In this document: positions 37,134 to 60,382 of the stretch, in pieces | Numbering within the stretch: the stretch's first letter is position 1 | Layout: every line of letters begins with the position of its first letter | Position numbers and translations under genes: made by a program | Notes under the pieces: model-generated | Seen by the model: the letters and a program-made list of their open reading frames with translations, nothing else | The model's database searches: none | What the model was told of the DNA's origin: nothing | Source: Halolamina pelagica | Lineage (GTDB): Archaea; Halobacteriota; Halobacteria; Halobacteriales; Haloferacaceae | Assembly (NCBI RefSeq): GCF_001307315.1 | Contig: NZ_LGUC01000001.1 | Span: 2,542,001-2,606,000, forward strand | Length of the DNA stretch: 64,000 nucleotides | Direction of reading: 5' to 3'

Positions 37134-37445
37134 CTCGGCCTGCTCCGCCTGTAGCGGATCTGTTAGCGGAGGGCTATACGGAAACCCGCCTTAACCAACA
37201 ACTGGGTCAGTTAGTCGGAGTGTTGGTTAATAATTTGGTACACCAATCCCCTTTGCTCCCGGAAGAGGTTCTTTCCAATTCAAGAACCATCGACGCGACC
37301 GGCTATCCCGGGCATCCCCCACACCGACTTCACCCAAGATTTCGTTCATTCAGCGACCTGTTAGGGACACACTTATGTTGACTAGATTCACATTAACATA
37401 CAGAATCTACCGTGGGAGCGCAGCGAGGACACGTTGGAGGGGACA
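37134..37445. other. Gene-free left flank of the glycan locus
   Basis: About 310 bases without a convincing gene. It contains a second weak stem (CTCCGC near 37143 with GCGGAG near 37166), the inverted repeat at 37191-37230, an AT-rich stretch (TTAATAATTTGG) and, before the AglJ-like gene, a box CTTATG near 37372 followed by leader sequence and a GGAGG ribosome-binding site. Short open frames here look like chance. Confidence 0.6.
37191..37230. repeat. Inverted repeat TTAACCAACA-N20-TGTTGGTTAA (left copy)
   Basis: Two perfect 10-base arms (37191-37200 and 37221-37230) separated by 20 bases. The same two arms occur once more at 60152-60194 with a 23-base unrelated spacer. The two copies lie outside the first and last glycan genes. 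Arm centres are 30 and 33 bases apart, about three helical turns. It may be a protein-binding site or a boundary element; nothing in the sequence fixes the function. Confidence 0.85.
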
Positions 37446-38692
37446 ATGTCTAGTGTAAATGCCGATCAAGAGGTTGTTGAACAGGGTGGGGAGTACCAGA
37501 TAGAGCAGGAGCCAGGGCTAAACGAGCGGCGGGCGGGGACAGCGTGCTGTTGCCGGCCGACAGCGAAGCGACCCCGCAGATCTCGCTCGTGATGCCCACG
37601 CTCAACGAGGAGGAAGGCATCCGGGAGTGCATCCAGCGAGCGAAAAACGCGTTTCGTGACCTCGGCGTCCAGGCCGAGATCATCGTCTCGGACAGTTCGA
37701 CCGACCGAACACCCGAGATCGCCCGGGAGGAGGGCGCCATCGTCGTCGAACCAGACGGGAAAGGGTACGGCTACGCCTACCGCTATGCGTTCGACAAGGC
37801 CCGAGCCGACGTGATCGCGATGGGCGACGCCGACACGACCTACGACTTCGAAGAACTCCCGAAGCTGTACGAACTCGTCGCCAACGGCGACGCCGATATG
37901 GCGATGGGGAGCCGTCTCGAGGGAGAGATCAAGCCCGGTGCAATGCCGACCCTCCACCAGTACGTTGGGAATCCGCTCCTGACGAAGTTCCTGAACACGT
38001 TCTACGGCGCCGGTGTTAGTGACGCCCACTCAGGGATGCGTGTGTTCACCCGCGACGCCTGGGAGGAAATGGGCTGTGAGACAACGGGGATGGAGTTCGC
38101 CTCCGAGATGATCATGCAGGCCGGCGCCGCCGACCTGAAGATCGAAGAACTTCCGATCGTTTATCACGAGCGTGAGGGCGAGGAGACCCTTGAGAGCTTC
38201 AAAGACGGCTGGCGGCACGTCCGGTTCATGCTCCTGAACGCGCCGGGGTATCTGTTCTCGGTGCCGGGGATGGTGCTTGGCCTGTTCGGAATGCTGCTGA
38301 TGGCTGGCGTCGCCTTCGGTGTTCCCGGGAGTTCGGTGACGCTGGGTCCGAACACGATGATTGCGGGGAGCCTGTTCACGATCGTCGGGTATCAGGTGGC
38401 GTCGATGGGTGCGTTCGCGACGGTGAGTGGCGACCCTATCAGGAAGCCTGATGATCCCGTGACGGAGTTCGTCGTCGAGCGTCTGAGCCTTGAACGCGGG
38501 GCGACGGCCGGGATCGTGGTTGGTGGCGCCGGTGCGGTGTATGCCGGCTACCTGGTTGTGACGTGGGCTCAGAGTGGGTTCAAGTCAGTGCCGTTTACCG
38601 TCGCGTCGCTCCTGGCGTTCACCGCGATCGTCATCGGCGTCCAGACGGTGTTCTCCGCGTTCTTCATGAGCGCGGTGGCAAGTTCGCGGTAG
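37446..38692 (+). CDS. aglJ: AglJ-like dolichyl-phosphate glycosyltransferase (probable one-base frameshift)
   Basis: GT2 enzyme of the haloarchaeal AglJ type, which loads the first hexose on dolichyl phosphate for N-glycosylation. Core motifs: ISLVMPTLNEEEGI, the nucleotide-binding AEIIVSDSSTDRT, metal-binding MGDADTTYD and the acceptor-site region SDAHSGMRVFTRDA. About four C-terminal membrane helices begin near LLNAPGYLFSVPGMVLG. A well placed GGAGG lies upstream of ATG 37446, but this start is in a different frame from the core; one missing G in the runs at about 37483-37486 or 37535-37538 would join them (415 residues). Otherwise GTG 37544 must be used. First gene inside the left inverted repeat. 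Confidence 0.82.
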
Positions 38693-38764
38693 ATCGGGAA
38701 CTGCTCGTTGTCCGAGATTCCTGATCGCTCGGCTCGTGTTACAGTCGAGAGGGAGACACCCGAC

Positions 38765-38916
38765 ACCGAGTGAAACCGTGGTTTGGCGTGTGTTCGGACG
38801 GGGTTAACCCCGTAACGAGTGTATTCAAGGGGAGTGGTAAACGTGGGTTATCACTCGGTGCACGGTGTGGGGTGAGTGGGGGTTTGCTGTGGTACTCGGT
38901 TTGTGTTTCACTCGGT
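38765..38916. repeat. GT-rich intergenic segment bounded by a 12-base inverted repeat
   Basis: ACCGAGTGAAAC (38765-38776) and its exact complement GTTTCACTCGGT (38905-38916) bound a strongly G/T-biased 150-base stretch. Inside is a perfect 16-base palindrome ACGGGGTTAACCCCGT at 38798-38813. It lies upstream of a hypothetical gene whose start is unclear. Could be a regulatory region or the footprint of a lost element. Confidence 0.55.
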
Positions 38917-41327: not shown

Positions 41328-42584
41328 ATGACTGCGGACTGGGAGAACGTAATCCTGCTCTCGGCCGACGCGCTGCGAGCGGACCACCTCTCCTGTTACG
41401 GCTACGAACGAGAAACGACTCCTGTCCTCGACGAGCTGGCGGAGGAGAGTATCCGGTTCACGAACGCGTACAGTGCGAGCTCGCACACGCGTGAGGCTGT
41501 TCCGGCCCTTTTGACCGGGGAGTACCCCGACGTCGCCGTCGATTCGGGGTATCACCTCGCGACGGAGACGGTGGCGTCGACGCTCTCCGAGAGGGGGTTC
41601 GCGACTGGTGGATTCCACTCGAACCCGTTCGTCTCGCGAGCGTATGGATTCGACGAGGGGTTTGACCACTTCGACGACGACCTCCATCTGGGCCAGCACA
41701 AACTGATCGCGCTGGCCCAGCGGGCGCTGGACAAGCTCCGGAATCGGCATTACGCCCGTGCTGAGGAGATCAACGAACGGTCGTTGAACTGGGTGGATTC
41801 GTTGGAGGAGGACCAGCCGTTCTTCCTCTGGAACCACTACATGGACACCCACGGACCGTACGAGCCGCCGGGGGAGTACGCAACGCTGTACGCGGATGAT
41901 GGACTGTCAGGACGTGATGCGCAGTCGCTGTATCAGCAGGCTATCGACAATCCAGAGTCGATTACTGAAGAGGAGCGGAAGCTGTTGGTTAATCTCTACG
42001 ACGGGGAGATTCGGTACAACGACATGCGGATCGGGGAGTTCTTGAACGAGCTTCGGGAGCGTGAGTTACTGGAGGAGTCGCTGTTGATTGTAACGTCCGA
42101 TCATGGGGATGCCTTCGGAGAACATGGCTATTACGAGCATCCGCGGTATCTGCATGAGGAGATTACGAAGGTGCCGCTCATGGTGCGGCCGCCAGGTGGC
42201 CGCAGCGAGGTAGTGAAGGCGCCTGCGAGTACGCTAGATGTCGTTCCGACTGCAGAGGCGGTTGCCGGCCGCGAAGTTGAGCTGTCGCTATTAGAAGATC
42301 TTGAAGACGACCGAAGAGTGTTCTCACAGGTTCGTGGGGAAGACGTCAATAGCCATCTCCGGCGATACGCCCTCTGGACCAGCGAGGATGTGTGCTTTTG
42401 TGAGTGGGACCCCTACACGGAAGAAATACGAGTTACCGAAACGACAGCCCGGTCGCTTGAGGCCGAACTAGAAGCACACGTCAAACAGCGGATACGCGTC
42501 GAGAACAGCCCAGAGGCTGCGGGGGAGGGCGACGTGGACGAAGAAATTGAACGGCGGTTAGAAGCACTTGGGTATAAAGGTTGA
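41328..42584 (+). CDS. Sulfatase-fold (alkaline phosphatase superfamily) protein
   Basis: A 418-residue soluble protein with the metal-binding start NVILLSADALRADHLSCYGY and the second metal site LLIVTSDHGDAFGEHGYYEHPRYLHEE, both standard for the superfamily. At the nucleophile position, counted seven residues before LLTG, there is Thr (SSHTREAVPALLTGEYP) rather than Cys or Ser, so formylglycine sulfatase chemistry is unlikely; phosphatase or phosphotransferase-like chemistry is possible. Many haloarchaeal glycan clusters carry such genes, perhaps acting on sulfated or phosphorylated sugars. No signal peptide, so it acts in the cytoplasm. Confidence 0.88.
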   Translation: MTADWENVILLSADALRADHLSCYGYERETTPVLDELAEESIRFTNAYSASSHTREAVPALLTGEYPDVAVDSGYHLATETVASTLSERGFATGGFHSNPFVSRAYGFDEGFDHFDDDLHLGQHKLIALAQRALDKLRNRHYARAEEINERSLNWVDSLEEDQPFFLWNHYMDTHGPYEPPGEYATLYADDGLSGRDAQSLYQQAIDNPESITEEERKLLVNLYDGEIRYNDMRIGEFLNELRERELLEESLLIVTSDHGDAFGEHGYYEHPRYLHEEITKVPLMVRPPGGRSEVVKAPASTLDVVPTAEAVAGREVELSLLEDLEDDRRVFSQVRGEDVNSHLRRYALWTSEDVCFCEWDPYTEEIRVTETTARSLEAELEAHVKQRIRVENSPEAAGEGDVDEEIERRLEALGYKG

Positions 42585-42830
42585 AAATGAAATGAACATA
42601 CCGTACTATCGAGAGAGTTTCCATCATATGTCTTCAGTAGCATCTCGTACCGCGATGGTTAGTCAAGCCTAGAAGGTCACACGAAATGATTTCTGCTGAC
42701 CAAGGTCAAAATCCCATACCTTAGCGAAAGTAAGACTGGATTGGTTTGGGTTCTGTGGAGTGCGGACAGACACACAAGTGAGCGATGAAGTCAGTAGATG
42801 ATATTGGGGCGAACCTTTGTTCAATAGGGC

Positions 42831-44177
42831 CTATGAAATATAGCCCAGATCAGACAGCCGATCCTGTGTTTCTTTATCAATCTCTTGTTGAGGGCCTGAA
42901 TGACCACGGTTTGGGAAGTGTTTGTTCAACGACTCAACAACACCCTTGTTTTCTGTGACTTCGCCACATTCGCGGTCAATAAGGATGTAATCATCGGACT
43001 CTGACACTCTCGTCAGCATCCATCGGTCGGTGACGACCGCCTGTTGGTCCAACCCATGTCCAATTTCGCCTGCATGTGCCACGCGCTCCTCCATAATCTC
43101 CGAGAATTGTTGGCCATCAAACTGCAAGCTGGAGGGATCTTCGACACCTGATTCAGAGAGAATGTTCGGGGCGATATCCACTGTGGAGACAACACCATCA
43201 GCTGCTTTGACTCCATCCATAAACAACGGGACATCAAGCACTTCTGGGATGAGAGCGTGTCCGTGCCCAACCCCATAGATACCTCGTTTCCCAGCGAAAT
43301 ATTGTTCGCTTAATTCGACTCGGTCCCACATCTCCTCTCCGTGGTCGCTTGTTATTACGACGAGTGCATCATCTGGAAGGTGTGACATGAGCCGGTTTAA
43401 TTGCTGATCTACAAAATAGAGTGCCGTATCATATAATTTCTTTCGGGCTTCCCGATACTGATTAAACCCAGGGCCAAAGTTTGCCTGTTGATATCTCCAT
43501 CGGCGCAACCCGTCTACGTCCGGAATATCACCGAACGGTTTCTCGTTTGGTACCGTAAGAGGCTCATGTAAATCACCGAGATGAAGATAGGAGAATCGAG
43601 GTCCTTCAGTCTGTTCCCACCATTCAAGAAACTCTGAAACAAGTTCGTCCGCAGGCGTCTCATGTGCAATCTTACAGTGTGGAAGATGTCCGCGAACAGA
43701 AAGCTCTGCGGTGGCAATCGCCGTTGAGAAATATGTCTCATAGCCAGCAGCATCAAACAATTCGGGTAGCAATATCGTTTCATCCAGCAATGAGGTCATT
43801 TCACCATCATCAGATCCACGATCCCGGTAATCACCGACGTATCCCGCGCCGTGGTTATGTGGGAATAGCCCCGAGAGGATGCTAGGAACTGCCGCATATG
43901 TCCAGGGTGCAGCAGATACAGCTGTCCGGTGCATATCAATTGTATCTAAGAATGGGGTCGTTTGTCGATGGTAACCGGTGCGCGAGAGGCGATCGGCTCG
44001 CAGACAATCAATAACGACGATAACGACATCACGGCCATTCAAATGTAACTTAGGAATGTCTCCCCGAGAAGACTGTTGGAACCTATTCCACCGATTGATT
44101 GCAAACGAATAGTAGGGGAGAGCATGCTTCGTAAGCTGATCCCGTATGGAATCAAGTAACCCTGAATCTTCACTCAT
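42831..44177 (-). CDS. Second sulfatase-fold protein, AT-rich gene
   Basis: A 448-residue member of the same superfamily as the previous gene but of clearly different base composition. Metal site DVVIVVIDCLRADRLSRTGYHR, nucleophile region SAAPWTYAAVPSILSGLFPHN with Thr at the usual Cys/Ser position, and second metal site DALVVITSDHGEEMWDRV followed by GVGHGHALIPEVLDVPLFM. The N-terminal 45 residues form a helical, membrane-associated-looking extension. It is oriented toward the first copy, and its AT-richness marks the start of the transferred-looking part of the locus. Confidence 0.88.
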   Translation of the reverse strand: MSEDSGLLDSIRDQLTKHALPYYSFAINRWNRFQQSSRGDIPKLHLNGRDVVIVVIDCLRADRLSRTGYHRQTTPFLDTIDMHRTAVSAAPWTYAAVPSILSGLFPHNHGAGYVGDYRDRGSDDGEMTSLLDETILLPELFDAAGYETYFSTAIATAELSVRGHLPHCKIAHETPADELVSEFLEWWEQTEGPRFSYLHLGDLHEPLTVPNEKPFGDIPDVDGLRRWRYQQANFGPGFNQYREARKKLYDTALYFVDQQLNRLMSHLPDDALVVITSDHGEEMWDRVELSEQYFAGKRGIYGVGHGHALIPEVLDVPLFMDGVKAADGVVSTVDIAPNILSESGVEDPSSLQFDGQQFSEIMEERVAHAGEIGHGLDQQAVVTDRWMLTRVSESDDYILIDRECGEVTENKGVVESLNKHFPNRGHSGPQQEIDKETQDRLSDLGYIS

Positions 44178-44202
44178 ATCATATCATCGGATTATTTCAT
44201 TT

Positions 44203-45821
44203 TTAACTCTGTCGTGTGTTACACACATAGTATTCACTTGCCCATATCTGGCTTTTGTTTCCACATGCGTTGTCTGTGATTGTGAGATGGGATTCGCCGA
44301 GAGGACCATGCATAGTGTTCTTGACGTCCGTTTCCAATCGCTCAGTCGAGGCGGCATCATTGGGATTGAATCGCTCGATGGCCATATATTGGTCCCACTC
44401 CGCGTTAGTGTACACACGGTTCATGTCGATTAATGGATTGTCAATATCGTTGCCAAGTGGTGAAATTGGAGATGCTGCAGCGTATCCGCCTGCGGTAATC
44501 AACAAAATCGCAACAGTCGCGCGCTTTAATGCGCCCGTTGGCAGCGTATCCCGGACATATATAAAGAAGACGCTGCCACCGAGTATTAAGAGTGGCCCAA
44601 TAAAGTAAAACATGCGATAGTGGAGTTTGAAGTTGATACTTGCAATCAATGCACCTACTGTTAGAAGGCCTGCTGAGAGCATAGCAACAATGAATGGTGT
44701 CTTGATGATATCGCGCTGACGAACAAGCCGAGCCCAGAGATACACAATTCCGCCGCCCACCCCAAGTCCACAGGTGTACAGCAAGGGATAATACTTAATA
44801 GCTCTTAACGGCGCGCTTAATGTAACTCCGCTTTCAACGTTTCTCCCAACGCTTTGACTCGCCTGCCCTGATGACGGAAGAATGAGTTCCAAAGGATTTG
44901 CGGGAAACTGAAACGTGAAAACGCTCATGAGAACCCCTATGGCTGGGGATCGCCACGCACTCCAGAGAATGTGAATTAGCAGTAATAGCACGGGTGCGAC
45001 AATGATTGCAATCCACCGATTTTGATGGCCAGCATCACTCGCCATTCCTAACCATCTGAGAAAGTAACACCCAAGAAGGATGCCAGTGCTAATTGAAATG
45101 ATTACTGTCGCATAAAAGAAATGCACCCAGACAACACTGAGCAGCAATCCTACTGCGAGGATATTGTATCGTCTGTCGGCGCCGCCAATGGCCGCCAATA
45201 ACACAATTAGAACCACTAGAAATAAAGGAACTGCTAAATGCTCTGATTGTGTGATTGTTGAACTGCGAAGAAAAAGAGGGAACGGAACTGAGAGAATAGC
45301 AGCGACAAGTGCAGCATCTTTGCTGAAAAGATTCCTAGACCCGACTCCATAGATGAGGACTGGTGTGAACGCAGCGACAGCAATTGTAATGCCGCCTGCA
45401 TCGTATAAGCGGACACCAAATGGCACAACGATTCCGTCGCCAGCAACTAACTTACCGATAACCAACTCAATGATGAAAAGCGGAGATGCGTGATACATTC
45501 CGCTCCCTTGTACAAATCCTTCATTTGCCCAGCGGCCTGCTTTTCCCGCCCAATTCTGCACATCGGTTCCCCTGTTGCAATATGCACGAATGGTCCCGCT
45601 CGCAAGAAGAAGCTCAACAAAAGAGTTCCAAGAAGGTATGGGGTATTTGATTGTTTTTCCCCGGTCATGACTCCAAAGAGAAACAAAATGAGCGTGGTTG
45701 CAACGCCCACGTAGACGAACGGCGGTCTAGGAAATGGCGTGCCTAGGAAGGTATATAATGCAACCGTCACTCCAAAAATCGCGAACGCTAGACATATAAT
45801 ATATTTTTCAGTCGATCTCAT
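44203..45821 (-). CDS. Large multi-pass membrane protein, possible GT-C type (one-base frameshift)
   Basis: 539 residues when one base is restored in the C run 45569-45572, which joins HIATGGTDVQNWAGKAGRW. About twelve hydrophobic segments, then a soluble C-terminal tail. The first external loop, with an acidic D before VQNWAGKAGRWANEG and MYHASPLFIIEL, has the position expected for GT-C glycosyltransferases (DxD-like acid after helix 1), but the motif is weak. It could be a lipid-sugar dependent transferase or a polymerase. AT-rich gene between a sulfatase-fold gene and a GT2 gene, all on the minus strand. Confidence 0.7.
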
Positions 45822-45907
45822 GTCTCGGACTCATTTTGTGGCCAATTAACTGATACACTGTTGCATATACATATATCACTTGGAATATTGGTGTATCATG
45901 GGATACT

Positions 45908-46954
45908 TCACTCATTATCGTCTTTCACTGTTTTATAGAAATCTTCTTTGTCCAACCCGATTCCAACGTACTCAGCGAACGACTTGCTCTGAATTTCGGT
46001 CGTCCACTCCATGTTACGACCAGCTTCCCGTTCGCGGAGTCCCCGAACAGCGTACTGCAACTCACACGAGAAGGCACGCGTCGCTTGGACGATTCCATCC
46101 CGCCAGGCTAGAATGAGGTTCCAATAAAGAAAACTCAAAATAAGTATTGGGAGCCCTTTTGCCAGCAGTGTCAGCGGGAAGTGCTTTGTCAGCATTTTTG
46201 CCCTGTTGATGTTCTGGTGGTATATCTGGAAGCTGTTCTTCCCGTAGTCAACTTTTTGCTTGACACTTTGGGAGAACCCGTGGAAAACGACCGAATCGGG
46301 TTCGTAAAGAACCGTCCAGCCATCCTCTTGGAGCCTGAGACAGAACTCAAGGTCCTCAACATACATAAAAAAGTCTTCATCGAAGCCACCTAGCTCGTCG
46401 AACACAGCGCAGTCAACAAGCATAGCACAGCCCGACCCCCAGAGTGTCTCGCAAGTCTCATCCGGTACCTCTTCAGCCCCAACTGGACGAAGATGATGTG
46501 GATGCCACCCGAATCCAAGTTCGTCAAGCGCACCGATGCCCTTGTCTATTAGATCGTGGTCATGTTCTAATCGAACCTGTGGAACGACCGCACCAACACT
46601 TGACAACTTCAGGTCCTCAACAAGTTTGGTGACGGTGTCGGATATAATGACGGCATCAGAATTTAAAAAGAAAATGTAATCGCCCGTCGCCTTTCTTACC
46701 CCGTAGTTACAGCCACCTGCAAAGCCCCTGTTCTCGGACAGGAAGTGGAGATCAGTGTGCGAAAGCGAGGCGGTGAGCTTGTCTTGATCGGCTTCGTCCG
46801 ATGCATTGTCAACGACTAATATTTCGGTTATTGGATACGCTGACTCTTCCAGTGAATCAACACATCGCTTCGTTAACTCCGCAGTATTGTAGTTTATTAT
46901 AACAGCAGAAACAGTCGGGCTGTGAGTTGCGTTCTCGGACCGGGTCTGTTCCAT
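45908..46954 (-). CDS. Glycosyltransferase family 2, rhamnosyltransferase-like
   Basis: A 348-residue GT-A enzyme starting at ATG 46954 (a GTG precedes it). Motifs: TVSAVIINYNTAELTKRCVDSL, EILVVDNASDE, the donor-binding FLNSDAVIIS with the DxD-like NSDA, and LGGFDEDFFMYVEDLEFCLRL with the catalytic ED. This pattern (WbbL-like) is frequent in rhamnosyltransferases, which fits the complete dTDP-rhamnose pathway downstream. Two hydrophobic helices near the C-terminus (LLAKGLPILILSFLYWNLIL) tether it to the membrane. Confidence 0.9.
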   Translation of the reverse strand: MEQTRSENATHSPTVSAVIINYNTAELTKRCVDSLEESAYPITEILVVDNASDEADQDKLTASLSHTDLHFLSENRGFAGGCNYGVRKATGDYIFFLNSDAVIISDTVTKLVEDLKLSSVGAVVPQVRLEHDHDLIDKGIGALDELGFGWHPHHLRPVGAEEVPDETCETLWGSGCAMLVDCAVFDELGGFDEDFFMYVEDLEFCLRLQEDGWTVLYEPDSVVFHGFSQSVKQKVDYGKNSFQIYHQNINRAKMLTKHFPLTLLAKGLPILILSFLYWNLILAWRDGIVQATRAFSCELQYAVRGLREREAGRNMEWTTEIQSKSFAEYVGIGLDKEDFYKTVKDDNE

Positions 46955-47008
46955 CACCCTAAATCACCTCGCTGCGGTTAAAAACGATTTGGGATTCCTG
47001 TATCGGCA

Positions 47009-47019
47009 CCCCCCCCCCC
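47009..47019. repeat. Run of eleven C between divergent glycan genes
   Basis: An uninterrupted tract of 11 C in otherwise AT-rich DNA, 55 bases from the GT2 start and 66 bases from the DUF616 gene start. Such tracts slip during replication and can change promoter spacing. Given the homopolymer errors elsewhere in this window, the exact length is unreliable. Confidence 0.8.
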
Positions 47020-47084
47020 ACTCATACTTACAACCATACAATTTATATTTGATGTGTAACTACTACGTTGTACAAGGCTATTAA

Positions 47085-47921
47085 ATGAGCGAGTCATTAG
47101 TGGTTTATACCGCAGTCTTTGGTGACTATGACGTTGTTGTCAACCCAGTTAAACCAGAAGAGGATATAGACTATATTTGTTTTACCGATCGTCCAGATTC
47201 GATACCCAGCGGCTGGGAGACGCGTGAGATAGAGCTTCCAGACCTCTCGGACAAGCTCAAAAGTGGGTATATAAAAATACATCCTCACAAGCTGTTCCCC
47301 GAACACAAAATGAGTCTATGGGTCGACGGGAATATTGTCATTGTCGGAGAGGTATCTGCATTAGCCGAGCAGTTGCTACAAGAAAGTGATTTAGCCGTCC
47401 CCATGCATCCAGACCGGAATTGCATATACAGGGAGGCAGACGTCTGTTTGAATATGGGTATCGTAGAAGAGAGGGCGACAAGTGAAAAGATGGACCAGTA
47501 TCGCCGTGAAAATTATCCGAAAAACAACGGTCTCAGTGAAACGCGAATTCTTGTAAGGAAGCACCAGGAACCAGATATTGTTATGACGATGAATCTGTGG
47601 TGGGAGGAGTACAACAGTGGGCCCGAGCGAGACCAATTGAGTTTCGATTACGCTACTTGGAAGGCGGGAATAAACGTTAATCACCTTGATTCCACTTTCC
47701 CAGTCGACTCGCAGTATTTCAAACAGTATCCACATAAAGCGGATATGAAGGCGAAGCGAGTCTATGAGATCCTGCTGAGGATGCGGTGGAATCCGCGATA
47801 TGCTGTGCAAAAATACATTGGCTTAGTGCTGTTGTCAGTGTACTTATTCGGAGTGGCAGTTGCAGAAACACTAATTCGTGCAGTAAAGTTACTAACGGCA
47901 CCGGAGAAAAGGGAGTTCTAA
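47085..47921 (+). CDS. DUF616 family glycosyltransferase-like protein
   Basis: A 278-residue protein. The start SLVVYTAVFGDYDVVVNP and YICFTDRP are the signature of DUF616 (the TOD1/MUCI70-like family, grouped with GT-A glycosyltransferases), followed by LSDKLKSGYIKIHPHKLFPEHKMSLWVDGNIVI with the DGN metal-binding-like site. The C-terminus has one membrane helix (IGLVLLSVYLFGVAVAETLI). A TTTATAT box near 47042 is a plausible promoter. AT-rich, in the transferred-looking part of the glycan locus. Confidence 0.82.
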   Translation: MSESLVVYTAVFGDYDVVVNPVKPEEDIDYICFTDRPDSIPSGWETREIELPDLSDKLKSGYIKIHPHKLFPEHKMSLWVDGNIVIVGEVSALAEQLLQESDLAVPMHPDRNCIYREADVCLNMGIVEERATSEKMDQYRRENYPKNNGLSETRILVRKHQEPDIVMTMNLWWEEYNSGPERDQLSFDYATWKAGINVNHLDSTFPVDSQYFKQYPHKADMKAKRVYEILLRMRWNPRYAVQKYIGLVLLSVYLFGVAVAETLIRAVKLLTAPEKREF

Positions 47922-48026
47922 GAGTAATCAGCACAACCTTTGGCTATTCGGGAGGAATGTTTCGATCCAGTCGGTGGCAAAGCTGACGCGGTGACTTAAT
48001 TGAAGAAATATTTCGGTGAAGAACTC

Positions 48027-48235
48027 TCAGAAGTGGTCTTCGCATTCATAAATCTCTGGTGACACCTCTCGTTTGAGGCTCTTACAGAACGGTTCGATCC
48101 CGTTCAATGTCGGCGAATGGGGCGGAATGAAGACGAACTCGATGCCGAGTTCGTCGGCCCATTGTTGGGTGAACCTTGCGGGATGGGAGCCATAGTTGTC
48201 CGCCACGAGCAGAATCCCGGCACGCGGATTATACC
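48027..48235 (-). pseudogene. IS630-family transposase, C-terminal remnant
   Basis: The minus strand reads GILLVADNYGSHPARFTQQW, then LGIEFVFIPPHSPTLNGIEP and FCKSLKREVSPEIYECEDHF-stop. VADNYGSHPA and PPHSPTLNGIEP are the DDE-domain ends of IS630-type transposases (last catalytic Asp and Glu). Nothing upstream of about 48235 continues the frame, so only the last 70 codons survive. It is one of two dead insertion sequences between the DUF616 and FkbM genes. Confidence 0.8.
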
Positions 48236-48373
48236 CATCATGGGGAAAACTTCTCTGTCACTTCAATAGAAGTCATTTGAAGAACTCAGAAAACTCATTG
48301 CCGACCCTTTCTACGTTGCCGTCAGATACTACGGTCAGGTAGTCTCTAAGAGCTGTTTCGAAGAGTCAGATAG

Positions 48374-48381
48374 GTCTATTT
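48374..48381. repeat. Target-site duplication, left copy (GTCTATTT)
   Basis: The 8 bases GTCTATTT lie directly outside the left terminal repeat of the IS5-type element and are repeated directly outside the right end (49321-49328). This is the duplication left by insertion and fixes the element boundaries. Confidence 0.85.
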
Positions 48382-49320
48382 GGCTCTGGTGAATCACTAG
48401 ACAACGTCGGTTCCAACCGTTAGAACTTGGAAGATGAAGCGGGAAATTTGCGATAGGTCATGTCGAAGATCTCCGGCTTCACGAGCAAAGCGGTTACGTT
48501 AGCTAAAAATGCTGTTGGTGGCCGAGGCAAAGTCGCCGCCCCCGAAGGGGGTGGCGGCTTCGTCGACTACCCCCTCGTCTCGCTGCACTGTCTGCGGAAT
48601 TTACCTCGATGAATCGTACCCCAACGCATTCGATCTGTTGAGCGAGATGCCGCATAATTGTGGGGAGATCGGCCTCAAAGAGGTCGATCTCCCTGACCAT
48701 TCGACGCTGGTAAAGGCTTTTGATAGGTTCGAGATGGAGGTCTGGCGAGTGCTGCTGCGCCTGTGCTGCAGCTGCACGACCCCTCGGGTCACGCCGCCAT
48801 CGACCTGACGTTCTTCGACCGCGAAAACGCCAGCAAGCACTACTGCCGCCGGACGAATTATCGCGTTCAAACACTGAAAGCGACGGCACTCGTCGATATA
48901 GAGAGTCAAGCTAGCCTCGACGTTCACTGTATGACCGAGAAAATGCACGACACACAGCTCGGCTGGCAGGTCGCCTGCCACAACGCAGCCGACCTGACCA
49001 GCCTCGCTGCTGACAAGGGGCTTTACTGGATGCAATTACGCGAGAAATTGCGGAAAGAGGACGTGAAGCCGCTGATTAAACGTCGCATCTTCTACCCATC
49101 GACCACGTGCATAACGCGCGGGTCGATGGGCCTCGCTACCGGCAAAGATCGATGTGTGAGACCGTCTTCCCGTCGATCAAGCGCACGCACGGCAACGCCG
49201 TGCCTGCGCGAGAATGCTGTACCGAGAATTTCGTGAACTCGTCTTGAAATGTGCCGTGCATAACATCAACCGTGCCGCAACATAGCCAAATCAACCGCAG
49301 TATGGCGATTCATCAGAGCC
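48382..49320 (+). mobile_element. IS5-family insertion sequence (ISH-like), inactive
   Basis: A 939-base element with imperfect 16-base terminal inverted repeats: GGCTCTGGTGAATCAC (48382-48397) and, on the other strand at the right end, GGCTCTGATGAATCGC (49305-49320). An 8-base direct duplication GTCTATTT flanks it. Size, ends and the transposase inside match the haloarchaeal ISH1-like group of IS5. The transposase gene is broken, so it cannot move by itself, but the well kept ends suggest a fairly recent insertion. Confidence 0.88.
48460..49285 (+). pseudogene. IS5-family transposase, frameshifted
   Basis: Starts MSKISGFTSKAVTLAKNAVGG and continues in pieces: a frame change in LHCLR/IYLDESYPN near 48595, another in LLRLSAQLHDPSGHAAIDLT near 48765, and loss of frame again near 49100 before IDGPRYR-like sequence and CAVHNINRAAT-stop at 49285. 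The conserved FFDRENASKHYCRRTNYRV segment holds a catalytic Asp. At least one change is an added base (extra A near 48598), unlike the missing-base pattern of the other genes, so this gene is probably really dead. Confidence 0.85.
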
Positions 49321-49328
49321 GTCTATTT
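49321..49328. repeat. Target-site duplication, right copy (GTCTATTT)
   Basis: Direct repeat of the 8 bases at 48374-48381, immediately outside the right end of the IS5-type element. Confidence 0.85.
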
Positions 49329-49876
49329 GAAACCGAAGCTGTGGAGCGCTTGTGAGGTCATTTGACCGCCGTTTACAGATTGTGCCCTATATAATTTCTA
49401 ACACTTTTACCTGACTTTCTCGCCAAGGGCCGCGCTCTTGGCCGGGTCAACCAACAGCGTCGCAATAGCACCACAGTCCTCTAATTGAGCCTCAATTCTC
49501 AAATTCAGGGTGGCCGTCCAAGAGAATGGTTAGCCGTCGCCGAACACCTCTCAAGCAATGATACTTCAAACTCATAAATCGCCCACTTCTCCCAACGTCG
49601 ATGCCCCGGTTTCTCCTACAATTTTCAAGAAAATACAAAAGTGTAGTAGTTATAATAAACCATCAGTAAACTCAATCTCATGTCCATACAGTATACTCGG
49701 AGTTGACCGCGTTGAGTAGCAGCAGACAAGATTCTTCGATTTGTCGCACAGTCTAATGGCATATACATTGGCTGAGAGAATCTACCTACTTTGATCGGAT
49801 ATATATCAGTTGATTGCCTTATGACAAAACCCGACCAAAACAGATATGAACCTACTATAATAATCTAATTCTAATT
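49329..49876. other. Gene-free AT-rich stretch after the IS element
   Basis: About 550 bases with no intact gene. On the minus strand around 49420-49480 a short stretch reads like protein (AIATLLVDPAKSAALGEKVR) but is surrounded by stops and I cannot place it; it is perhaps a relic. The right 200 bases are very AT-rich and probably hold the promoter of the FkbM gene. Confidence 0.5.
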
Positions 49877-50714
49877 GTGACATCTGTCATCAGACGGGGC
49901 ATAACCATCTATCAAGAGGAAGGTGCAACAACCCTTCTTCGGAGAGTTCTTGGGAAATTACAATCAGACGTATACAGTAAATCAAAGTCTGTCCGTGGGC
50001 AGTACTCCTTCACTCTGGCTAATCATACTGTCACATTTTCTGCTCCGACACCCACGGTGGTGAAACGTAATCAAAATCGTTTTAAATCTGAAAAACAGGA
50101 GCTTAGAGATTTCATTAACGAGATTAAGGAAGGCGACGTTGTATACGATGTTGGAGCGAATACGGGCCTGTACACGCTTTTTGCAGCGAAAGCCTGTCCA
50201 GATGTAGAGGTGATCGCGTTTGAACCGTACCCCCGAATCTCGACCTGTTGAAACAAGATGTCGCTCGAAACCAACTACAGAATGTAGAGATCCTGGACGT
50301 GGCGTTGTCGGATTCTGTTGGGAATATCGAATTCAGTCAGCCAACTGAAGATGATGTGGGTTATGGGTCATCATCGATAGAAGCAAACGAGTCAGAAGCT
50401 ACGATCGAAGTCCCAACCACGACTGGGGATCATCTCATTGCTGGTGGTAAGATACCTGCACCGAATGTAGTTAAGATAGACGTGGAGGGATCAGAGCCGC
50501 TTGTTCTTGAGGGGTTAGAAAAGTCACTCTCCGCCCCAGTTGCCGAACGGTATACTGCGAGGTTCATTTACCGGGAGTGGATAAGCGGCCTTCTGTTGAA
50601 AATTTCGGAAGTTCAGCAGAAGACATAGAGAACCGATTGCGAGAGTTCGGTTTTACAGTTGAGCGACTCCGCAGCAGTAGGGGAAGTGAAGTTTTCTATA
50701 AGGCTATAAAATAA
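49877..50714 (+). CDS. FkbM family methyltransferase (two one-base frameshifts)
   Basis: SAM-dependent methyltransferase of the FkbM type, 279 residues after two bases are restored. Motif I is DVVYDVGANTGLYTLFAAK, followed by EVIAFEPYP; motif PNVVKIDVEGSEPLVLEGL is the FkbM hallmark (D and E of the post-II region). Breaks: C run 50230-50234 (joining EPYPPNLDLLKQDVARN) and C run 50534-50537 (joining to CEVHLPGVDKRPSVENFG). The family O-methylates sugars in natural products and glycans, so methylation of a glycan sugar is likely. AT-rich; 28 bases ahead of the flippase gene. Confidence 0.87.
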
Positions 50715-50741
50715 CATATCTTCATTTAATTCTCACCATCA

Positions 50742-52252
50742 ATGGGGGTTGACATCATTCGGGGTTTGTTTCTATCCTTGGTTCGAAAGTTGCTACATTA
50801 TTCCTGGGGGTGATCATAACTCCAATTCTCGCTCGTTTACTTGGTAGTTCACAATATGGTGACTATGCATTTCTTTTGTCAATACTTGGTGTTACAATGA
50901 TAATTATTAATGCAGGAATTTTTGATGGGACTCGAAAATACATTGCCGAGGATCGAAATGAAGCCAATTGGACTGAACATGTCTTTGTATTTTATTTTAG
51001 GCTAGCTTTCGTATTGGCAATCATTGGTGCATTAATCTATACGGCTATCTCATGGTCTGGTCTACCTGACTATCTTTTTGGAGATGGCTTCAAGATCTAC
51101 TTTTTTCTCATAGGAGTTTTGATAGTTGGTCGCCAGATGAATTCCGTCGCTCGTGGGGGGTTGATGGGACTTGGGCTCGAAAATCGAAGTGAGCCATTAA
51201 ATGTATTAAAAAAGACACTCTTTGCTGTTGTTGGATTATATCTTGTATACACCGGATATGGAATCGTTGGCGTTCTTGTTGGTCATATAATGTCAACCCT
51301 GATTGTTTCTATCCTTGGATACACAGTTTTGTTTAAACACTTGGACCTCCGAGCGGTTTTTATACAGATACCTACCAGTTTTCCTAAAAGACAATTACTA
51401 TCGTTTAATGGTCTTAGTATCATTCTGATATTCTTGACAGCGTCTCTTTATCATATCGATATAATTTTCCTCAGACTACTTACTGGAGATCAAGCGACTG
51501 GGTACTATAAGGCGGCACTCGTAGTCGCTGAATTTCTTTGGTTGGTGCCGAATGTGCTCCAGATGGTACTTCTCCATTCGTCTTCGGGATTGTGGTCAAA
51601 CGACCGCACAGACCGGATTACGAGTTTAGCATCTCAAACCACGCGATATAACCTCTCTCTCGTACTTCTTTTAATGATCGGCCTAGCAGCACTGGCACAT
51701 GATTTTATCCCAATCTATTACGGCCCTGAATTTGATGCTGCTATTCTACCCCTTCTCTTGTTACTCCCGGGTGTTTTGGGTTTCGCACTTGCCCGTCCAA
51801 TATTCGCTATTGGACAAGGAAAAGGTCAACTTAAGATACTGATTATGGCGACTGGTACTGCCTCACTGGTTAATTTGTGTTTGAATGCACTGTTGATACC
51901 TTCTTTCGGTATGGTAGGGGCAGCTATTGCAACGAGTATTGGTTACGGCTCAATGTTGATACTCCATATCCTCGCTGCACTCAGAATCGGATTTAACCCG
52001 ATAAATGATCTTCGGCTTATGAGAATTACAGCTGTTGCAATCATTGCCACTGGAGTTATTTTTGGCCTTACCTCAGCTATTAATTCATCAATTGTATCAC
52101 TCGTTATAGTACCTCCGGTTGGATTTATTGTTTATAGTATACTCTTGTTAAAATTCTCTGTTGTGTCCCCAGAAGAAACGGAACTAATTATACAACAACT
52201 ACCGAGCCCACTCAAGGAATACGCAGAAAGAGGGATGCGGTTCATTAGTTGA
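50742..52252 (+). CDS. Flippase of the Wzx/AglR type (one-base frameshift)
   Basis: A 503-residue, about 14-helix MATE-like polysaccharide flippase (MurJ/Wzx clan), which should move the lipid-linked glycan across the membrane. The real N-terminus MGVDIIRGFVSILGSKV is split from the rest by one missing G in the run 50761-50764; without it the protein would start only at helix 1 end (IITPILARLLGSSQYGDYAF). The ILARLLGSSQYGDYAF block is typical of the haloarchaeal AglR/Wzx group. Strongly AT-rich, last gene of the transferred-looking part. Confidence 0.9.
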
Positions 52253-52654
52253 CTAGAATTATAACATCTGTTTAGGATTATCCTAGCCAACTGGTGATTT
52301 TGATTCTAATATTTTTTTTTTTTGCATTATTTAGAGGCCGATTATTGAATTCACCTCCTGCTACGAGCAGGGTGAAGACCCGGTTGAACCAAACTCGTAG
52401 TTCGTGATGGCGACGACCACTCTCTCGGAAACATGTTGCGTGCCATCGTCTGTAATGATAGTCAGAGATCAGGTAAGTCGGCCGAAAAGAAAAGACCAAA
52501 TTACTAGGAGGAATCTACCGAAAGGAGATTCCAATACATGGCCAATTACCAAAACTGCAAACATTAATGAACCTATTGGTATTATCTGACTGACGAGCAT
52601 TTATCATTTTCTGATTTTCAACAAGGCTAAGACAGTACAGCAATATCGTCGATT
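52253..52654. other. Gene-free gap between flippase and rhamnose genes
   Basis: About 400 bases. The left part is AT-rich and ends the flippase transcription unit with a T run; from about 52340 the composition shifts back. A short minus-strand stretch (52400-52470) reads ITDDGTQHVSERVVVAITNY before a stop, which may be a scrap of a lost gene, but it is too short to name. The right end holds the rmlC promoter region. Confidence 0.5.
52312..52323 (+). terminator. T-run terminator after the flippase gene
   Basis: Twelve consecutive T on the coding strand 60 bases after the flippase stop. Oligo-T on the non-template strand is the known signal for archaeal RNA polymerase termination. Confidence 0.65.
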
Positions 52655-53119
52655 ATGATTCACGATGTAGAGGTTAAAAGCCTCCAAGTGAATGCTGACG
52701 AACGCGGCCATCTCGTCGAAGTATTCCGAACCGACTGGGAGGAGTACAACATCGACCCAGCCATGTCCTACTACTCCATGACTTACCCCGGAATCATCCG
52801 GGCGTGGCACCGCCACCTCGAAGGACAGAACGATCACTTTGTCTGCCCACAGGGTCGCATCAAGGTCGGCGTCTACGACGATCGCGACGACTCACCCACC
52901 CAGGGCGAACTCAACACGTTCGTCATCGGTGAGCACAACCAGAAGCTCATCCACATCCCTGGCGATTGCTGGCACGGCTTCAAAGCCATCGGCGACAAAC
53001 CCGCCCTCCTCATCAACTACCCCACCGAACTCTACGACTACGAGAACCCCGACGAGGAGCGCATCCCATACGACACAGACAAAATACCTTTAGACTGGGA
53101 AGAACCACCTCACGAGTAG
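52655..53119 (+). CDS. rfbC: dTDP-4-dehydrorhamnose 3,5-epimerase family protein
   Basis: A 154-residue cupin of the RmlC family. VKSLQVNADERGHLVEVFRTDW matches the RmlC start; GIIRAWHRHLEGQNDHFVCPQG carries the active-site His, and GDCWHGFKAIGDKPALLINYPTELYDYENPDEERIP the conserved end. It is shorter than bacterial RmlC (about 180) but typical for archaea. With rmlA, rmlD and rmlB just downstream it completes the dTDP-L-rhamnose route. The stop is three bases before rmlA, so co-transcription is near certain. Confidence 0.92.
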   Translation: MIHDVEVKSLQVNADERGHLVEVFRTDWEEYNIDPAMSYYSMTYPGIIRAWHRHLEGQNDHFVCPQGRIKVGVYDDRDDSPTQGELNTFVIGEHNQKLIHIPGDCWHGFKAIGDKPALLINYPTELYDYENPDEERIPYDTDKIPLDWEEPPHE

Positions 53120-53122
53120 TAC

Positions 53123-54196
53123 ATGAAGGGCGTCTTACTTTCCGGCGGAACTGGCTCTCGACTCCGTCCGATCACCCATACTGGACCGAAACAGCTGGTC
53201 CCCGTCGCGAACAAGCCAGTCCTCGAGTACGCGATTGAGGACATCAAAGAGGCTGGCATCACCGAAATTGGCGTCATCCTCGGAAACAAAGGTCGGGAAG
53301 AGATCCAGGAACTCCTCGGCGACGGCTCGAAGTACGGCGTCGACATCACATACATCGTCCAAGGGAACCCCCTCGGGCTCGCTCACGCGGCTGGCTGCGC
53401 GCGAGAGTTCGTCGGCGATGACGACTTCGTGATGTACCTAGGCGACAACATCCTGAAGTCCGGTGTTACCGAGCTCGTCGAGAGCTTCGAGGCCGGTAAC
53501 TATGGGGCGGGTATCGCGCTTCAGGAGGTCGACAACCCTCAGGCGTTCGGCATCGCCGACGTCGACGACGAGGGCAACGTCACAGAGCTCATCGAGAAGC
53601 CCGACCAACCGCCGACGAACCTGGCGCTCATCGGGATGTACGTCTTCTCTCCGGCGGTGTTCGACGCCATCGACGACCTCGAGCCGTCCTGGCGCGGGGA
53701 GCTCGAGATTACCGACGCCATTCAGGACCTCCTCGAAGACGGCCACGAGATCGACTCCCACGTCGTGACCGGCTGGTGGAAAGACACAGGGAAGCCCGAG
53801 GACATTCTGGAGGCCAACCGCCTCGTCCTCGAGGATAAGGAACTCACGACGGCAGGGGTCATCGAAGACGGCGCCGAAACCGACGGCCGGATAGAGCTCG
53901 CAGACTCGTCCGTCATCGAGTCCGGCGCCGTCGTCCGTGGGCCCGTCTCGATCGCTGAGAACGTCACGATCCAGGGCGGAACCTACGTGGGACCGTACAC
54001 ATCAATCGGCGCCGACTCCACGCTGGAGAACATCCACATCGAGAACAGCGTCGTCATCGGCGGCTCCGAGATCTCGGCCTCGGGCCGCATCGTCGACAGC
54101 CTCCTCGGCCGGAACGCCGACGTCGAGAGTGCCGACGAACTCCTGCCCGAAGGTCGACGACTCGTCGTCGGCGAGAACTCCCAGCTCAAACTCTAA
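53123..54196 (+). CDS. rfbA: Glucose-1-phosphate thymidylyltransferase, long form
   Basis: A 357-residue sugar nucleotidyltransferase, first step of dTDP-rhamnose synthesis. The signature GGTGSRLRPITHTGPKQLVPV, the YLGDNIL metal site and EKPDQPPTNLALIGMYVF are conserved; WWKDTGKPEDILEANR closes the catalytic domain. Residues about 245-357 add a left-handed beta-helix tail (hexapeptide-type repeats such as GPVSIAENVTIQGGTYVGPY), giving the archaeal long form with possible allosteric or acetyltransferase-like function. Confidence 0.93.
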   Translation: MKGVLLSGGTGSRLRPITHTGPKQLVPVANKPVLEYAIEDIKEAGITEIGVILGNKGREEIQELLGDGSKYGVDITYIVQGNPLGLAHAAGCAREFVGDDDFVMYLGDNILKSGVTELVESFEAGNYGAGIALQEVDNPQAFGIADVDDEGNVTELIEKPDQPPTNLALIGMYVFSPAVFDAIDDLEPSWRGELEITDAIQDLLEDGHEIDSHVVTGWWKDTGKPEDILEANRLVLEDKELTTAGVIEDGAETDGRIELADSSVIESGAVVRGPVSIAENVTIQGGTYVGPYTSIGADSTLENIHIENSVVIGGSEISASGRIVDSLLGRNADVESADELLPEGRRLVVGENSQLKL

Positions 54197-54198
54197 CC

Positions 54199-55262: not shown

Positions 55263-55314
55263 ACGCTAACCTTTCAACAGTAAGGTAAATACGTGCCGCT
55301 CGTAAGCCAATAGT

Positions 55315-56241: not shown

Positions 56242-56290
56242 TCACTTACAGAAGAAAAGGTCTGGTAGTTCTCAACCAGATATCTCTACT

Positions 56291-57015: not shown

Positions 57016-57102
57016 GACTATGTTGGAGTTGCCATACACCGCCATATGTCTTTTCACACGGATAACCAAACCTATGAGTGACCCTCTTGCTTACCCGACC
57101 CC

Positions 57103-58800: not shown

Positions 58801-58935
58801 ATGAGCCGATACCCTCGATCTGTACGCTCTTCTCGCGTGAAGTGTATCCCGTGTAACGCACCGGCCGCCGAAACTGTCGACGGCGACTACGTCTGTGTTG
58901 AGTGTGGCGACACAGTCGTCGGCGACGAGGATTGA
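58801..58935 (+). CDS. Zinc-ribbon microprotein, copy 1
   Basis: A 44-residue protein starting MSRYPRSVRSSRVKCIPCNA with a basic N-terminus and two CxxC knuckles (CIPC and CVEC) 20 residues apart, a minimal zinc ribbon, ending GDTVVGDED. A close paralogue (same length, about four fifths identical) lies at 59928-60062, on the other side of the epimerase gene. Size and charge suggest a nucleic-acid or protein adaptor; function unknown. Confidence 0.75.
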   Translation: MSRYPRSVRSSRVKCIPCNAPAAETVDGDYVCVECGDTVVGDED

Positions 58936-58986
58936 CACCCGGGATCGATCGACACCCTTTCCACCAACTATCGAACACGAACTCCC

Positions 58987-59919
58987 ATGCAGAACCAACG
59001 CGTCCTCGTCACTGGTGGCGCGGGCTTCATCGGCTCAAACCTCGCGAATCAACTCGCCGAGACGAACAACGTCATCGCCGTTGACGACCAGTACCTCGGC
59101 ACGCCCGACAACCTTGACGAAGCAGTGGAGTTCGTCGACGCATCCGTCGTCGACGACGATCTCCCCACGGACGTCGACGTCGCGTTCCATTTGGCGGCAC
59201 TCTCCTCCTACAAAATGCACGAGGACAACCCCGCGAAAGGCGCCCGCGTCAACGTCGAGGGGTTCGTGAACACGATCGAACAGGCCCGCAAGGACGGCTG
59301 CGACACCGTCGTCTACGCGACCACGTCCTCCATCTACGGCGACCGGACCGAACCCTCTCCCGAAAGCATGGACGTCGAAGCCCGAACCGGGTACGAAGCC
59401 TCGAAACTCGCCAGGGAGCGCTACGCCGAGTACTTTCACAACTTCCACGACATGACCCTCGCCGGCCTGCGATTCTTCTCGGTCTATCAGGGCTTCGCCG
59501 GCGCCGAGGAACACAAAGGCGAGTTCGCCAACACCGTCGCCCAGTTCACCGACAAGATCGCCAACGGCGAGCGGCCGGAACTGTTCGGCGACGGCACGCA
59601 AACCCGCGACTTCACGCACGTCGACGACGTCGTCCGCGCCTGCGAACTCGCCGCCGACCATGAACTCCAGGGCATCTACAACGTCGGCACGGAGGAGAGC
59701 TACACGTTCAACGAGATGGTCGCGATGATCAACGACGAACTGGGCACCGACGTCGACCCGAAGTACATCGAGAACCCGCTGGAGGTGTACGTCCACGACA
59801 CGATGGCCGACTACTCGAAACTCCACGAGGCCACGGGCTGGGAGCCGACGATCGACTTCGAAGAAGGTGTCGCGCGAGTTTGTGAGCCGTACACGGACTC
59901 GGTGGTCACGGAGAACTAA
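58987..59919 (+). CDS. NAD-dependent sugar epimerase/dehydratase
   Basis: A 310-residue extended SDR protein. NQRVLVTGGAGFIGSNLANQ binds NAD; the catalytic set is TSSIYGDRTEPSPES and TGYEASKLARERY (Tyr-xxx-Lys); FFSVYQGFAGAEEHKGEFANTV and FGDGTQTRDFTHVDDVVRA are the sugar-binding parts of UDP-glucose/UDP-glucuronate 4-epimerase-like enzymes. With UDP-glucose dehydrogenase nearby, UDP-glucuronate or UDP-galactose could be the product; the specific reaction is unproven. It sits between two copies of a zinc-ribbon microprotein gene. Confidence 0.9.
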   Translation: MQNQRVLVTGGAGFIGSNLANQLAETNNVIAVDDQYLGTPDNLDEAVEFVDASVVDDDLPTDVDVAFHLAALSSYKMHEDNPAKGARVNVEGFVNTIEQARKDGCDTVVYATTSSIYGDRTEPSPESMDVEARTGYEASKLARERYAEYFHNFHDMTLAGLRFFSVYQGFAGAEEHKGEFANTVAQFTDKIANGERPELFGDGTQTRDFTHVDDVVRACELAADHELQGIYNVGTEESYTFNEMVAMINDELGTDVDPKYIENPLEVYVHDTMADYSKLHEATGWEPTIDFEEGVARVCEPYTDSVVTEN

Positions 59920-59927
59920 CCACACTC

Positions 59928-60062
59928 ATGAGCCGCTACCCTCGAACCGTCCGATCCTCGCGTGTAAAGTGCATCCCCTGTAACGTCCCTGCCGCAGAAA
60001 CCATCGACGGCACGTACGTCTGCGTCGAATGCGGCGACACCGTCATCGGCGCCCGAGACTAA
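59928..60062 (+). CDS. Zinc-ribbon microprotein, copy 2
   Basis: A 44-residue paralogue of the protein at 58801-58935: MSRYPRTVRSSRVKCIPCNV ... CVECGDTVIGARD, with both CxxC knuckles kept and about nine differences. Its ATG lies eight bases after the epimerase stop, so both are co-transcribed. Duplicate retention on both sides of one enzyme gene suggests a tandem gene-pair duplication with loss of one epimerase, or selection for dosage (inference). Confidence 0.75.
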   Translation: MSRYPRTVRSSRVKCIPCNVPAAETIDGTYVCVECGDTVIGARD

Positions 60063-60382
60063 CGCGCACCTTTCTCCACGACTACCCGTATTCCTCCCAT
60101 TGCGACACGTGGGAGTATCTCGTGAGCGCTCACAGGGAGCCGCTGGGGCGATTAACCAACAGATGTCGACGGTATGGCGCGATGTGTTGGTTAAGACTGC
60201 GCACTCTCGAAGTCTCGACCTCCGTCTCGAGTCCGTGAACCAGTACGGACTAGCGTCGCTGCCACGAAACGCCCACTCAACAAACCCTCGGCCACCAGCG
60301 ACCCCTACTGAACAGCCACCCGAAGAGCCGTGACCCGTCACGAGGACATAGAGTTAACAAGAAGGAAACAGATTATCCACTC
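60063..60382. other. Gene-free right flank of the glycan locus
   Basis: About 320 bases with no convincing gene. It contains a perfect 12-base palindrome GTGAGCGCTCAC (60122-60133) and the second copy of the inverted repeat (60152-60194). Beyond it the sequence returns to core-like GC-rich DNA with the 49-residue zinc-ribbon gene. Confidence 0.55.
60152..60194. repeat. Inverted repeat TTAACCAACA-N23-TGTTGGTTAA (right copy)
   Basis: Arms at 60152-60161 and 60185-60194, identical to the arms at 37191-37230; the 23-base spacer is unrelated to the left copy's 20 bases. The differing spacers argue against a simple recombinase crossover core and for two binding half-sites about three helical turns apart. 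Confidence 0.85.

Follow-up and report, generated by a model that had tools for sequence, protein, structure and literature searches.

In RK2-type plasmids, the protein KorB reads small dispersed palindromes, some of them located at promoters and others distant, and serves both repression and partition. Likewise, the CIRCE element, an extremely conserved 9-10 bp inverted repeat with a 9-bp spacer at heat-shock promoters, is read by a single protein family, HrcA, over a wide range of taxa. In archaea, SegB of the Sulfolobales SegAB system is described as a ribbon-helix-helix protein that is encoded after segA and has a compact 13-bp motif, with 83.7% of its sites in S. solfataricus being intragenic (PMC12284271, PMC5120986), and a 2016 review counts among its open questions what the centromeres of archaeal chromosomes and plasmids are and where they lie (PMC5120986). 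Here, we analyzed a 64,000-nucleotide stretch of the Halolamina pelagica genome (NZ_LGUC01000001.1, positions 2,542,001 to 2,606,000; hereafter “the window”), in which two copies of an inverted-repeat element, sites A and B, lie at the edges of a surface-glycan cassette. The element is very probably read by a family of ~107-residue proteins that we name P107, and we consider it reasonably likely that sites A and B are P107 binding sites of an element whose main role is replicon maintenance. Element and P107 represent a concrete and testable candidate for an archaeal centromere that is widespread in haloarchaea.

Like SegB, P107 is a (predicted) archaeal DNA-binding protein with palindromic sites ahead of its own gene, which are clustered at the locus and also dispersed; unlike for SegB, the half-sites lie ~32 bp apart, the sites are intergenic, and the partner ATPase is not constant. 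The predicted fold differs as well, since the AlphaFold model of the H. pelagica P107 (pLDDT 76.6, pTM 0.41; moderate confidence) is not a ribbon-helix-helix protein and instead shows two helices at the N terminus and a sheet of three strands. As with the parS sites of ParABS systems, conserved palindromes cluster overall around the replication/partition locus, with this clustering being absent on some contigs, and as with the operators of KorB, one class of dispersed palindromes lies at a promoter and others lie far away. However, Pfam and NCBIfam scans revealed no ParB or KorB domain in P107, and half-site spacing and host domain differ from those of KorB. The extreme conservation of the arms is shared with CIRCE, whereas the 20-23 bp spacer and the location of most sites off promoters are not. 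Unlike Orc1 origin recognition boxes, the sites are not confined to origins, and one site set (genome G023) has no Orc1 relative in the 200 kb examined. Literature searches with the letters of the arms returned no haloarchaeal paper among the matches listed, and the matches listed for haloarchaeal operators, partition, and pNRC200, with most subscription journals outside the coverage, contain no description of the element; together with P107, it may constitute a plasmid-inheritance system that has not been described so far.

Architecture and spread of the element

The element has a strict two-half-site design, TTAACCAACR-N20-23-YGTTGGTTAA. Two perfect inverted pairs (spacers of 20 and 23 bp) occur in the window and none in 100 dinucleotide shuffles, which confirms the inverted 10-base pairs with perfect arms reported in a preliminary description of this DNA; its statements that the two spacers are unrelated and that both copies lie in gene-free DNA were also borne out, the latter with the home-made gene caller used in this work. 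In the whole genome, the exact pattern was found at 10 places (reversed control, 0), nine of which are distinct: four chromosomal copies within ~129 kb and five copies on the 339-kb contig C2. The tenth, at C1:7923, repeats site B, because the two ends of contig C1 apparently overlap by ~18.7 kb (window 52222-64000 and C1:1-18700), as in an unclosed circle, so that the right end of the window is duplicated in the assembly. When the innermost position was left free, the number of places rose to 14. The same chromosome also harbors a plasmid-type module with three more sites (C1:94-114 kb).

Exact copies are present in 33 of 60 genomes, H. pelagica among them, with up to 27 copies per genome and none in any of the controls. 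Scanning of named genomes revealed at least 118 stretches with the element, all but two of which are haloarchaeal by title among the matches listed (one of the haloarchaeal ones being titled just “uncultured archaeon”), and a viral collection contributed 50 further stretches. While the two window copies do mark both edges of the glycan locus, as originally proposed, they are not specific to it, and the numerous copies in this genome, in other genomes, and at named-genome loci rule out a glycan-specific mark. The genome-wide and cross-haloarchaeal search that the preliminary description had suggested returned many copies, yet these are clustered near P107 genes (see below) rather than scattered at random with no link to islands.

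Among 230 distinct sites, collected with spacers of at least 16-28 bp allowed, 222 have a spacer of 20-23 bp (20, 21, 22, and 23 bp in 21, 95, 87, and 19 sites, respectively; other lengths in 8). Across the 2.18 Mb examined, where the mismatch spectrum, like the P107 adjacency and upstream counts below, is biased toward exact copies because named-genome and viral loci were picked by exact sites, the 19-24 bp spacing class contains 222 exact, 29 one-change, 5 two-change, and 2 three-change pairs, compared with 4, 1, 3, and 37 outside this class; a single substitution, A10>G, accounts for 23 of the 29 one-change sites. Two checks are free of this bias, namely, 40 P107 homologues obtained through protein similarity (below) and the stretches of H. 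pelagica itself (contig C2 and chromosomal stretches), in which the 19-24 bp class holds no pair with two or three mismatches. Base preferences in spacers and flanks are weak, and neither stem extension nor covariation beyond the arms nor target duplication was detected among the sites examined. Strict spacing and separate arms would be required by a dimeric DNA-binding protein that grips two half-sites, suggesting that the geometry of the element matches a reader of this kind: a P107 dimer would read two half-sites of 9-10 bp whose centers are approximately three helical turns apart.

P107 and its covariation with the half-sites

P107 adjoins 35 of 228 sites and is preceded by a site in 32 cases, more often than any other family (the next ones reach 11, 8, 7, and 7). 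In the loci examined, 39 of 56 P107 homologues have a site upstream of the start codon, which in 35 of them is 9-16 bp away, and the spacers of these promoter sites contain a conserved CTATG that we infer to be part of P107’s TATA region. From this position across the presumed TATA region, the bound protein would repress its own gene. The usual gene order is SITE-P107-orc1, often followed by a further site and polB: of 34 P107 loci, several of which are incomplete, 24 show orc1 in the stretch displayed, and orc1 lies within 1.5 kb of P107 in all eight annotated plasmid neighborhoods that were opened, including those of pNRC200 and pHS2 of Halobacterium. On pNRC200 (L305:10458-11986), an insertion interrupts the promoter site of P107 and leaves 1511 bp between the 9-bp half-sites, and pHS2 (L306) has an identical gene spacing and no intact site there either; P107 may be misregulated in these laboratory strains. 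In H. pelagica, the P107 gene is located on contig C2 (105028-105336), and the closest orc1 relative is 33 kb away.

P107 was found on 233 plasmid records and in the virus ChaoS9. Within the order searched, 303 of 392 genomes, from 78 of 95 genera, have a match to the P107 family. Its presence is associated with that of the element, since exact sites occur in 24 of 24 genomes with a strong P107 match (E<1e-30) versus 9 of 36 others (Fisher test, 1e-9), and in 28 of 36 genomes with any match (E<=1e-3) versus 5 of 24 without (2e-5). Moreover, 48 non-promoter sites on 11 contigs (sites among the matches listed, with one contig of unknown length omitted and one-change sites of H. pelagica included) are closer to P107 than expected (Kolmogorov-Smirnov p=1.5e-7), and in the two single-contig genomes of this set all 8 sites lie within 38 kb of P107.

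Many divergent P107s have no standard site and instead show another inverted repeat in the equivalent place. In all four genomes with divergent P107 that were examined, additional sites with the corresponding arms are present. Only one of 60 genomes contains the variant TTACCCCACA/TGTGGGGTAA, namely, the genome encoding the variant P107; a single contig holds 4 exact and 8 near copies of TTACCCCACA alongside 4 exact standard sites and a standard P107. In G013, 4 CTAACCAACA sites and none of the standard type were seen in 80 kb; in G023, a stretch of 200 kb includes 4 exact CTAACCCACA sites, 1 near copy, and one near standard site; and in G009, two TACCCCACA-type pairs were found, each with an 8-bp spacer. 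The TTAACCAACA and TTACCCCACA systems coexist on contig C4 of G029 (L266-L283), where P107 genes of both kinds are found, and are apparently orthogonal to each other. In two P107 relatives, L298 (G009) and L384 (G279), the operator spacer is shortened by roughly one helical turn, to 8 bp.

Among the 40 divergent homologues obtained via protein similarity alone, 26 have a recognized repeat at the start codon, and altogether 71 of 94 homologues carry an operator repeat, as judged by an operator finder that accepts arms of the TA.CC.A type only. The base at half-site position 7 follows a single amino acid: where the predicted first strand begins with Tyr, it is C (20 cases), and where this strand begins with any other residue, it is A (51 cases). 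This rule holds in 71 of 71 cases (69 before a one-base frame correction of two TACCCCACA-type operators; Fisher test, 4e-18 with ancestry ignored). Given the predicted fold and this covariation, the half-sites may be contacted by the three-stranded sheet in the C-terminal half of P107.

A further P107-like gene was found by the DNA pattern alone, on a contig of the bacterial metagenome-assembled genome Candidatus Tritonobacter. Both exact sites of this contig lie upstream of the P107-like gene (L107:5544-5987, sites and gene), one of them at a distance of 11 bp from the start; the gene is an open reading frame (ORF) of 105 aa that matches the P107 profile with E=6e-6 (six frames, two loci) and encodes Ser at the class-deciding strand position (alignment read by eye); no relatives of this protein were found in viral contigs. 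The other bacterial match, L069, has one site with a spacer of 24 and no P107-like ORF, as expected by chance.

By sequence, the P107 family appears to be related to DUF6788, a Pfam family of unknown function on which a literature search returned no papers. The homologue L260 passes the DUF6788 cut-off (PF20586; 36.6 versus 27.2 bits), whereas the P107s scanned gave no match and the bacterial L107 protein stays below it (11.4 bits). The two families also share inverted repeats at their own start codons: 7 of 13 haloarchaeal DUF6788 genes have repeats of 12-14 bp within 6 bp of the start codon (score >=10, equaled in 0.17% of 580 shuffles), a count restricted to the 13 of 29 genes with a recognizable DUF6788 motif, since the frame was wrong in about half of the 29, and excluding the repeat-bearing L391. 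This suggests that the habit of placing an operator at the own gene reaches beyond P107. The DUF6788 arms differ from those of P107 (e.g., CCTTATGTAACA), and pairs such as TACCTTATGTAACA..TGTTACATAAGGTA are seen at the start codons of several genes among L390-L419. The present findings offer a putative DNA-binding role for this Pfam family and, for P107, a residue-to-base rule that can be tested.

Taken together, the promoter-linked sites, the protein/site covariation, and the loss of site B in a congener that lacks P107 (see below) argue for P107 as the reader of the element, and they lend good support to the earlier suggestion that the repeats may bind a regulator.

Site placement and a proposed role in the inheritance of replicons

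The sites show a pronounced preference for intergenic DNA. Among 168 sites with enough flanking sequence, 131 are intergenic, 26 lie across a gene end, and 11 lie within a predicted gene, compared with 40, 15, and 112 for random positions in the same test. Within the intergenic space, the 157 sites that do not belong to P107 follow the frequencies of the gap types: 99 are in tandem, 29 in divergent, and 29 in convergent gaps, while the gaps themselves are 64/20/16% by number and 58/26/16% by length. No promoter enrichment was found among these 157 sites, and 40 of 93 tandem-gap sites fall into the first fifth of the gap, directly past the upstream stop codon and away from promoters. Hence, the majority of sites do not look like ordinary promoter operators. 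For 53 of 228 sites, an Orc1 gene is no more than three genes away, DUF7558 is frequent around sites (40 loci) and was found in 24 of 60 genomes, and the sites are dispersed across 100 kb and more instead of being confined beside orc1. ParA is encoded on 8 of 12 P107-bearing replicon pieces, the other four being partial, and lies within 3 kb of P107 in G013, G048, and ChaoS9. Since the dispersed sites avoid promoters and tend to sit near the replication core, and since ParA accompanies P107 on these pieces, we prefer, on indirect evidence, a centromere-like role, in which the dispersed sites on plasmids, integrated elements, and virus genomes would act as marks for partition or pairing.

Alternatively, P107 could act in the manner of KorA/KorB and regulate transcription across the whole mobile element, with the dispersed sites as plasmid-wide operators. 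The site at P107’s own promoter is what such a regulator would have, and a few gene families do show a site at a near-constant upstream distance (DUF6610, 63-81 bp in 7 cases; HVO_2833-type helix-turn-helix [HTH] genes, 83 bp in 8 of 11); furthermore, promoter-proximal sites would be needless if the regulator silenced at long range. However, this explanation is at odds with the distribution over gap types and with the stop codon-proximal sites in tandem gaps, as well as with ChaoS9, where one site is located at the orc1 end and faces a convergent gene, and we regard it as unlikely, albeit one to be reckoned with.

A second alternative holds that the reader is a different replicon protein, such as Orc1/Cdc6, a ParA-linked small protein, or a divergently encoded HTH protein, and that P107 is merely one of its targets. 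The proximity of Orc1 to sites, which extends to viruses without P107, agrees with this, and covariation with the sites would be expected of any replicon-encoded reader. What renders it improbable is that no other family is preceded by a site nearly as often as P107 (32 cases; next 11), that the half-site class tracks one P107 residue, that G023 combines a private site set with a P107 while no Orc1, ParA, or ParA-linked protein was detected in 200 of its 561 kb, and that the bacterial contig holds sites together with a P107-like gene.

Several observations weigh against P107 and its sites as an inheritance system. The P107 fold matched nothing at E<=0.001 among PDB and viral models (nor did the P107 profile find any PDB sequence below E=0.17), and the 232 kb surrounding the chromosomal sites of H. 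pelagica yielded no P107 gene. No exact site is held by 8 of 36 genomes with some P107-family match, and conversely, 9 of 36 genomes without a strong match do hold exact sites, including one site in G002; clustering near P107 is absent on contigs of G046 and G024. ParA is not constant on the P107-bearing replicon pieces, and P107 was not seen in 40 of 42 site-bearing viral records (L158-L204), which may be fragments. On the protein side, the Tyr forms of P107 may stem from one change, and 23 of 94 homologues lack the sought operator type, 7 of which keep the usual C-terminal tail and 16 of which were scored tail-less, compared with 4 of 71 homologues with an operator. The tail-less homologues without a recognized upstream repeat include L352, L361, L364, L367, L368, L377, L378, L379, L381, and L383 and are perhaps a repurposed branch of the family.

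The sites in P107-poor genomes and viruses imply that some sites have another reader or none. Viruses without P107 would depend on a borrowed reader or on a different one, and host plasmids may be the source of a borrowed reader. In several of the P107-less viral records, exact sites lie beside Orc1 or ParA genes. If viruses do rely on a plasmid reader, plasmids and viruses would be joined in one regulatory or inheritance network. It is tempting to speculate further that P107 and its sites form the centromere of haloarchaeal Orc1-type megaplasmids, with a reader unlike ParB or SegB that holds half-sites three helical turns apart, that P107-less head-tailed viruses with exact copies of the site borrow this machinery, and that members of the wider DUF6788 superfamily, including bacterial ones, bind DNA, regulate their own genes, and have half-sites predictable from the sheet; we put this forward as a tentative possibility.

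Sites A and B and the probable exchange of glycan cassettes

The two window sites were compared with their counterparts in three congeners, G004, G005, and G002. In G004, the flanks are 90-94% identical and a site is present at each matching edge (on two contigs), while few interior cassette pieces match in the stretches compared. In G005, the glycosyltransferase end with site A and the epimerase end with site B lie within 3.5 kb on contig C3, the two sites about 3.1 kb apart, and this contig also carries P107, orc1, and many sites. The simplest reading is that the window sites are passengers of glycan-cassette DNA exchanged with P107-type plasmids; they would have arrived with this DNA and been retained for as long as the cell has P107. 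The element could therefore serve as a marker for chromosomal islands exchanged with plasmids, in this case a surface-glycan cassette. Both arms of site A are identical in G005, where the spacer has diverged, and those of site B are kept at 20 of 20 positions in G004 and G005, both of which have P107, while the spacers differ by substitutions and indels. In G002, where no P107 was found, 8 of the 20 arm bases of site B are changed within 1.3 kb of surroundings that are 83% identical, a single case of decay in a genome that retains one exact site elsewhere.

The preliminary description had also raised the possibility that the sites are recombination or insertion targets used for cassette exchange, in keeping with the different cassette between the sites in G004 and with the two ends and their sites ~3.1 kb apart in G005. 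However, in 326 one-sided pairs, which are dominated by P107 promoters, no breakpoint was seen in the spacer, and the spacer half by the homologous flank is less conserved than the other (0.44 versus 0.63), the opposite of what strand exchange in the spacer would leave. In addition, homology to relatives ends 87-176 bp outside the sites (396 bp on the right side in G004), and the lack of target duplications also rules out a transposon that makes them, so that a role as recombination target is very unlikely. Finally, an RNA hairpin, a terminator, or a chance repeat can practically be dismissed, even though the arms could pair in RNA and many sites lie directly past stop codons, given loops of 20-23 nt, the lack of a longer stem or of covariation outside the arms, the about expected use of divergent gaps, the conservation of arm sequence and not of pairing alone, and the absence of the element from shuffles and reversed controls.

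Features of the window around sites A and B (window coordinates)
Feature	Position	Strand	Description
DUF1616 gene	36033..37106	+	Final gene of the conserved left flank; G004 homology ends at 37104
Site A	37191..37230	.	TTAACCAACA-N20-TGTTGGTTAA; predicted P107 binding site
Family-2 glycosyltransferase	37544..38692	+	With site A, common to G005 contig C3
Lone half-site in sulfatase gene	41983..41992	-	Exact, without partner arm
Low-GC core of glycan cassette	42000..54000	.	47-49% GC in 4-kb windows inside; 56-73% in other windows
NAD-dependent epimerase family gene	58987..59919	+	Precedes site B; common to G005 contig C3
44-codon ORF	59928..60062	+	Lies past the epimerase gene and before site B; contains two CxxC pairs (by eye)
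Site B	60152..60194	.	TTAACCAACA-N23-TGTTGGTTAA; predicted P107 binding site

Site A is located 84 bp past the end of the DUF1616 gene and 313 bp ahead of the glycosyltransferase ORF (start as called by the home-made gene caller); this ORF had been labeled “AglJ-like,” and the present analysis supports it only as a family-2 glycosyltransferase. The single half-site in the sulfatase gene is probably due to chance. The 44-codon ORF upstream of site B gave no match in a Pfam scan and can be aligned in four genomes, namely, those of H. pelagica, G002, G004, and G005.

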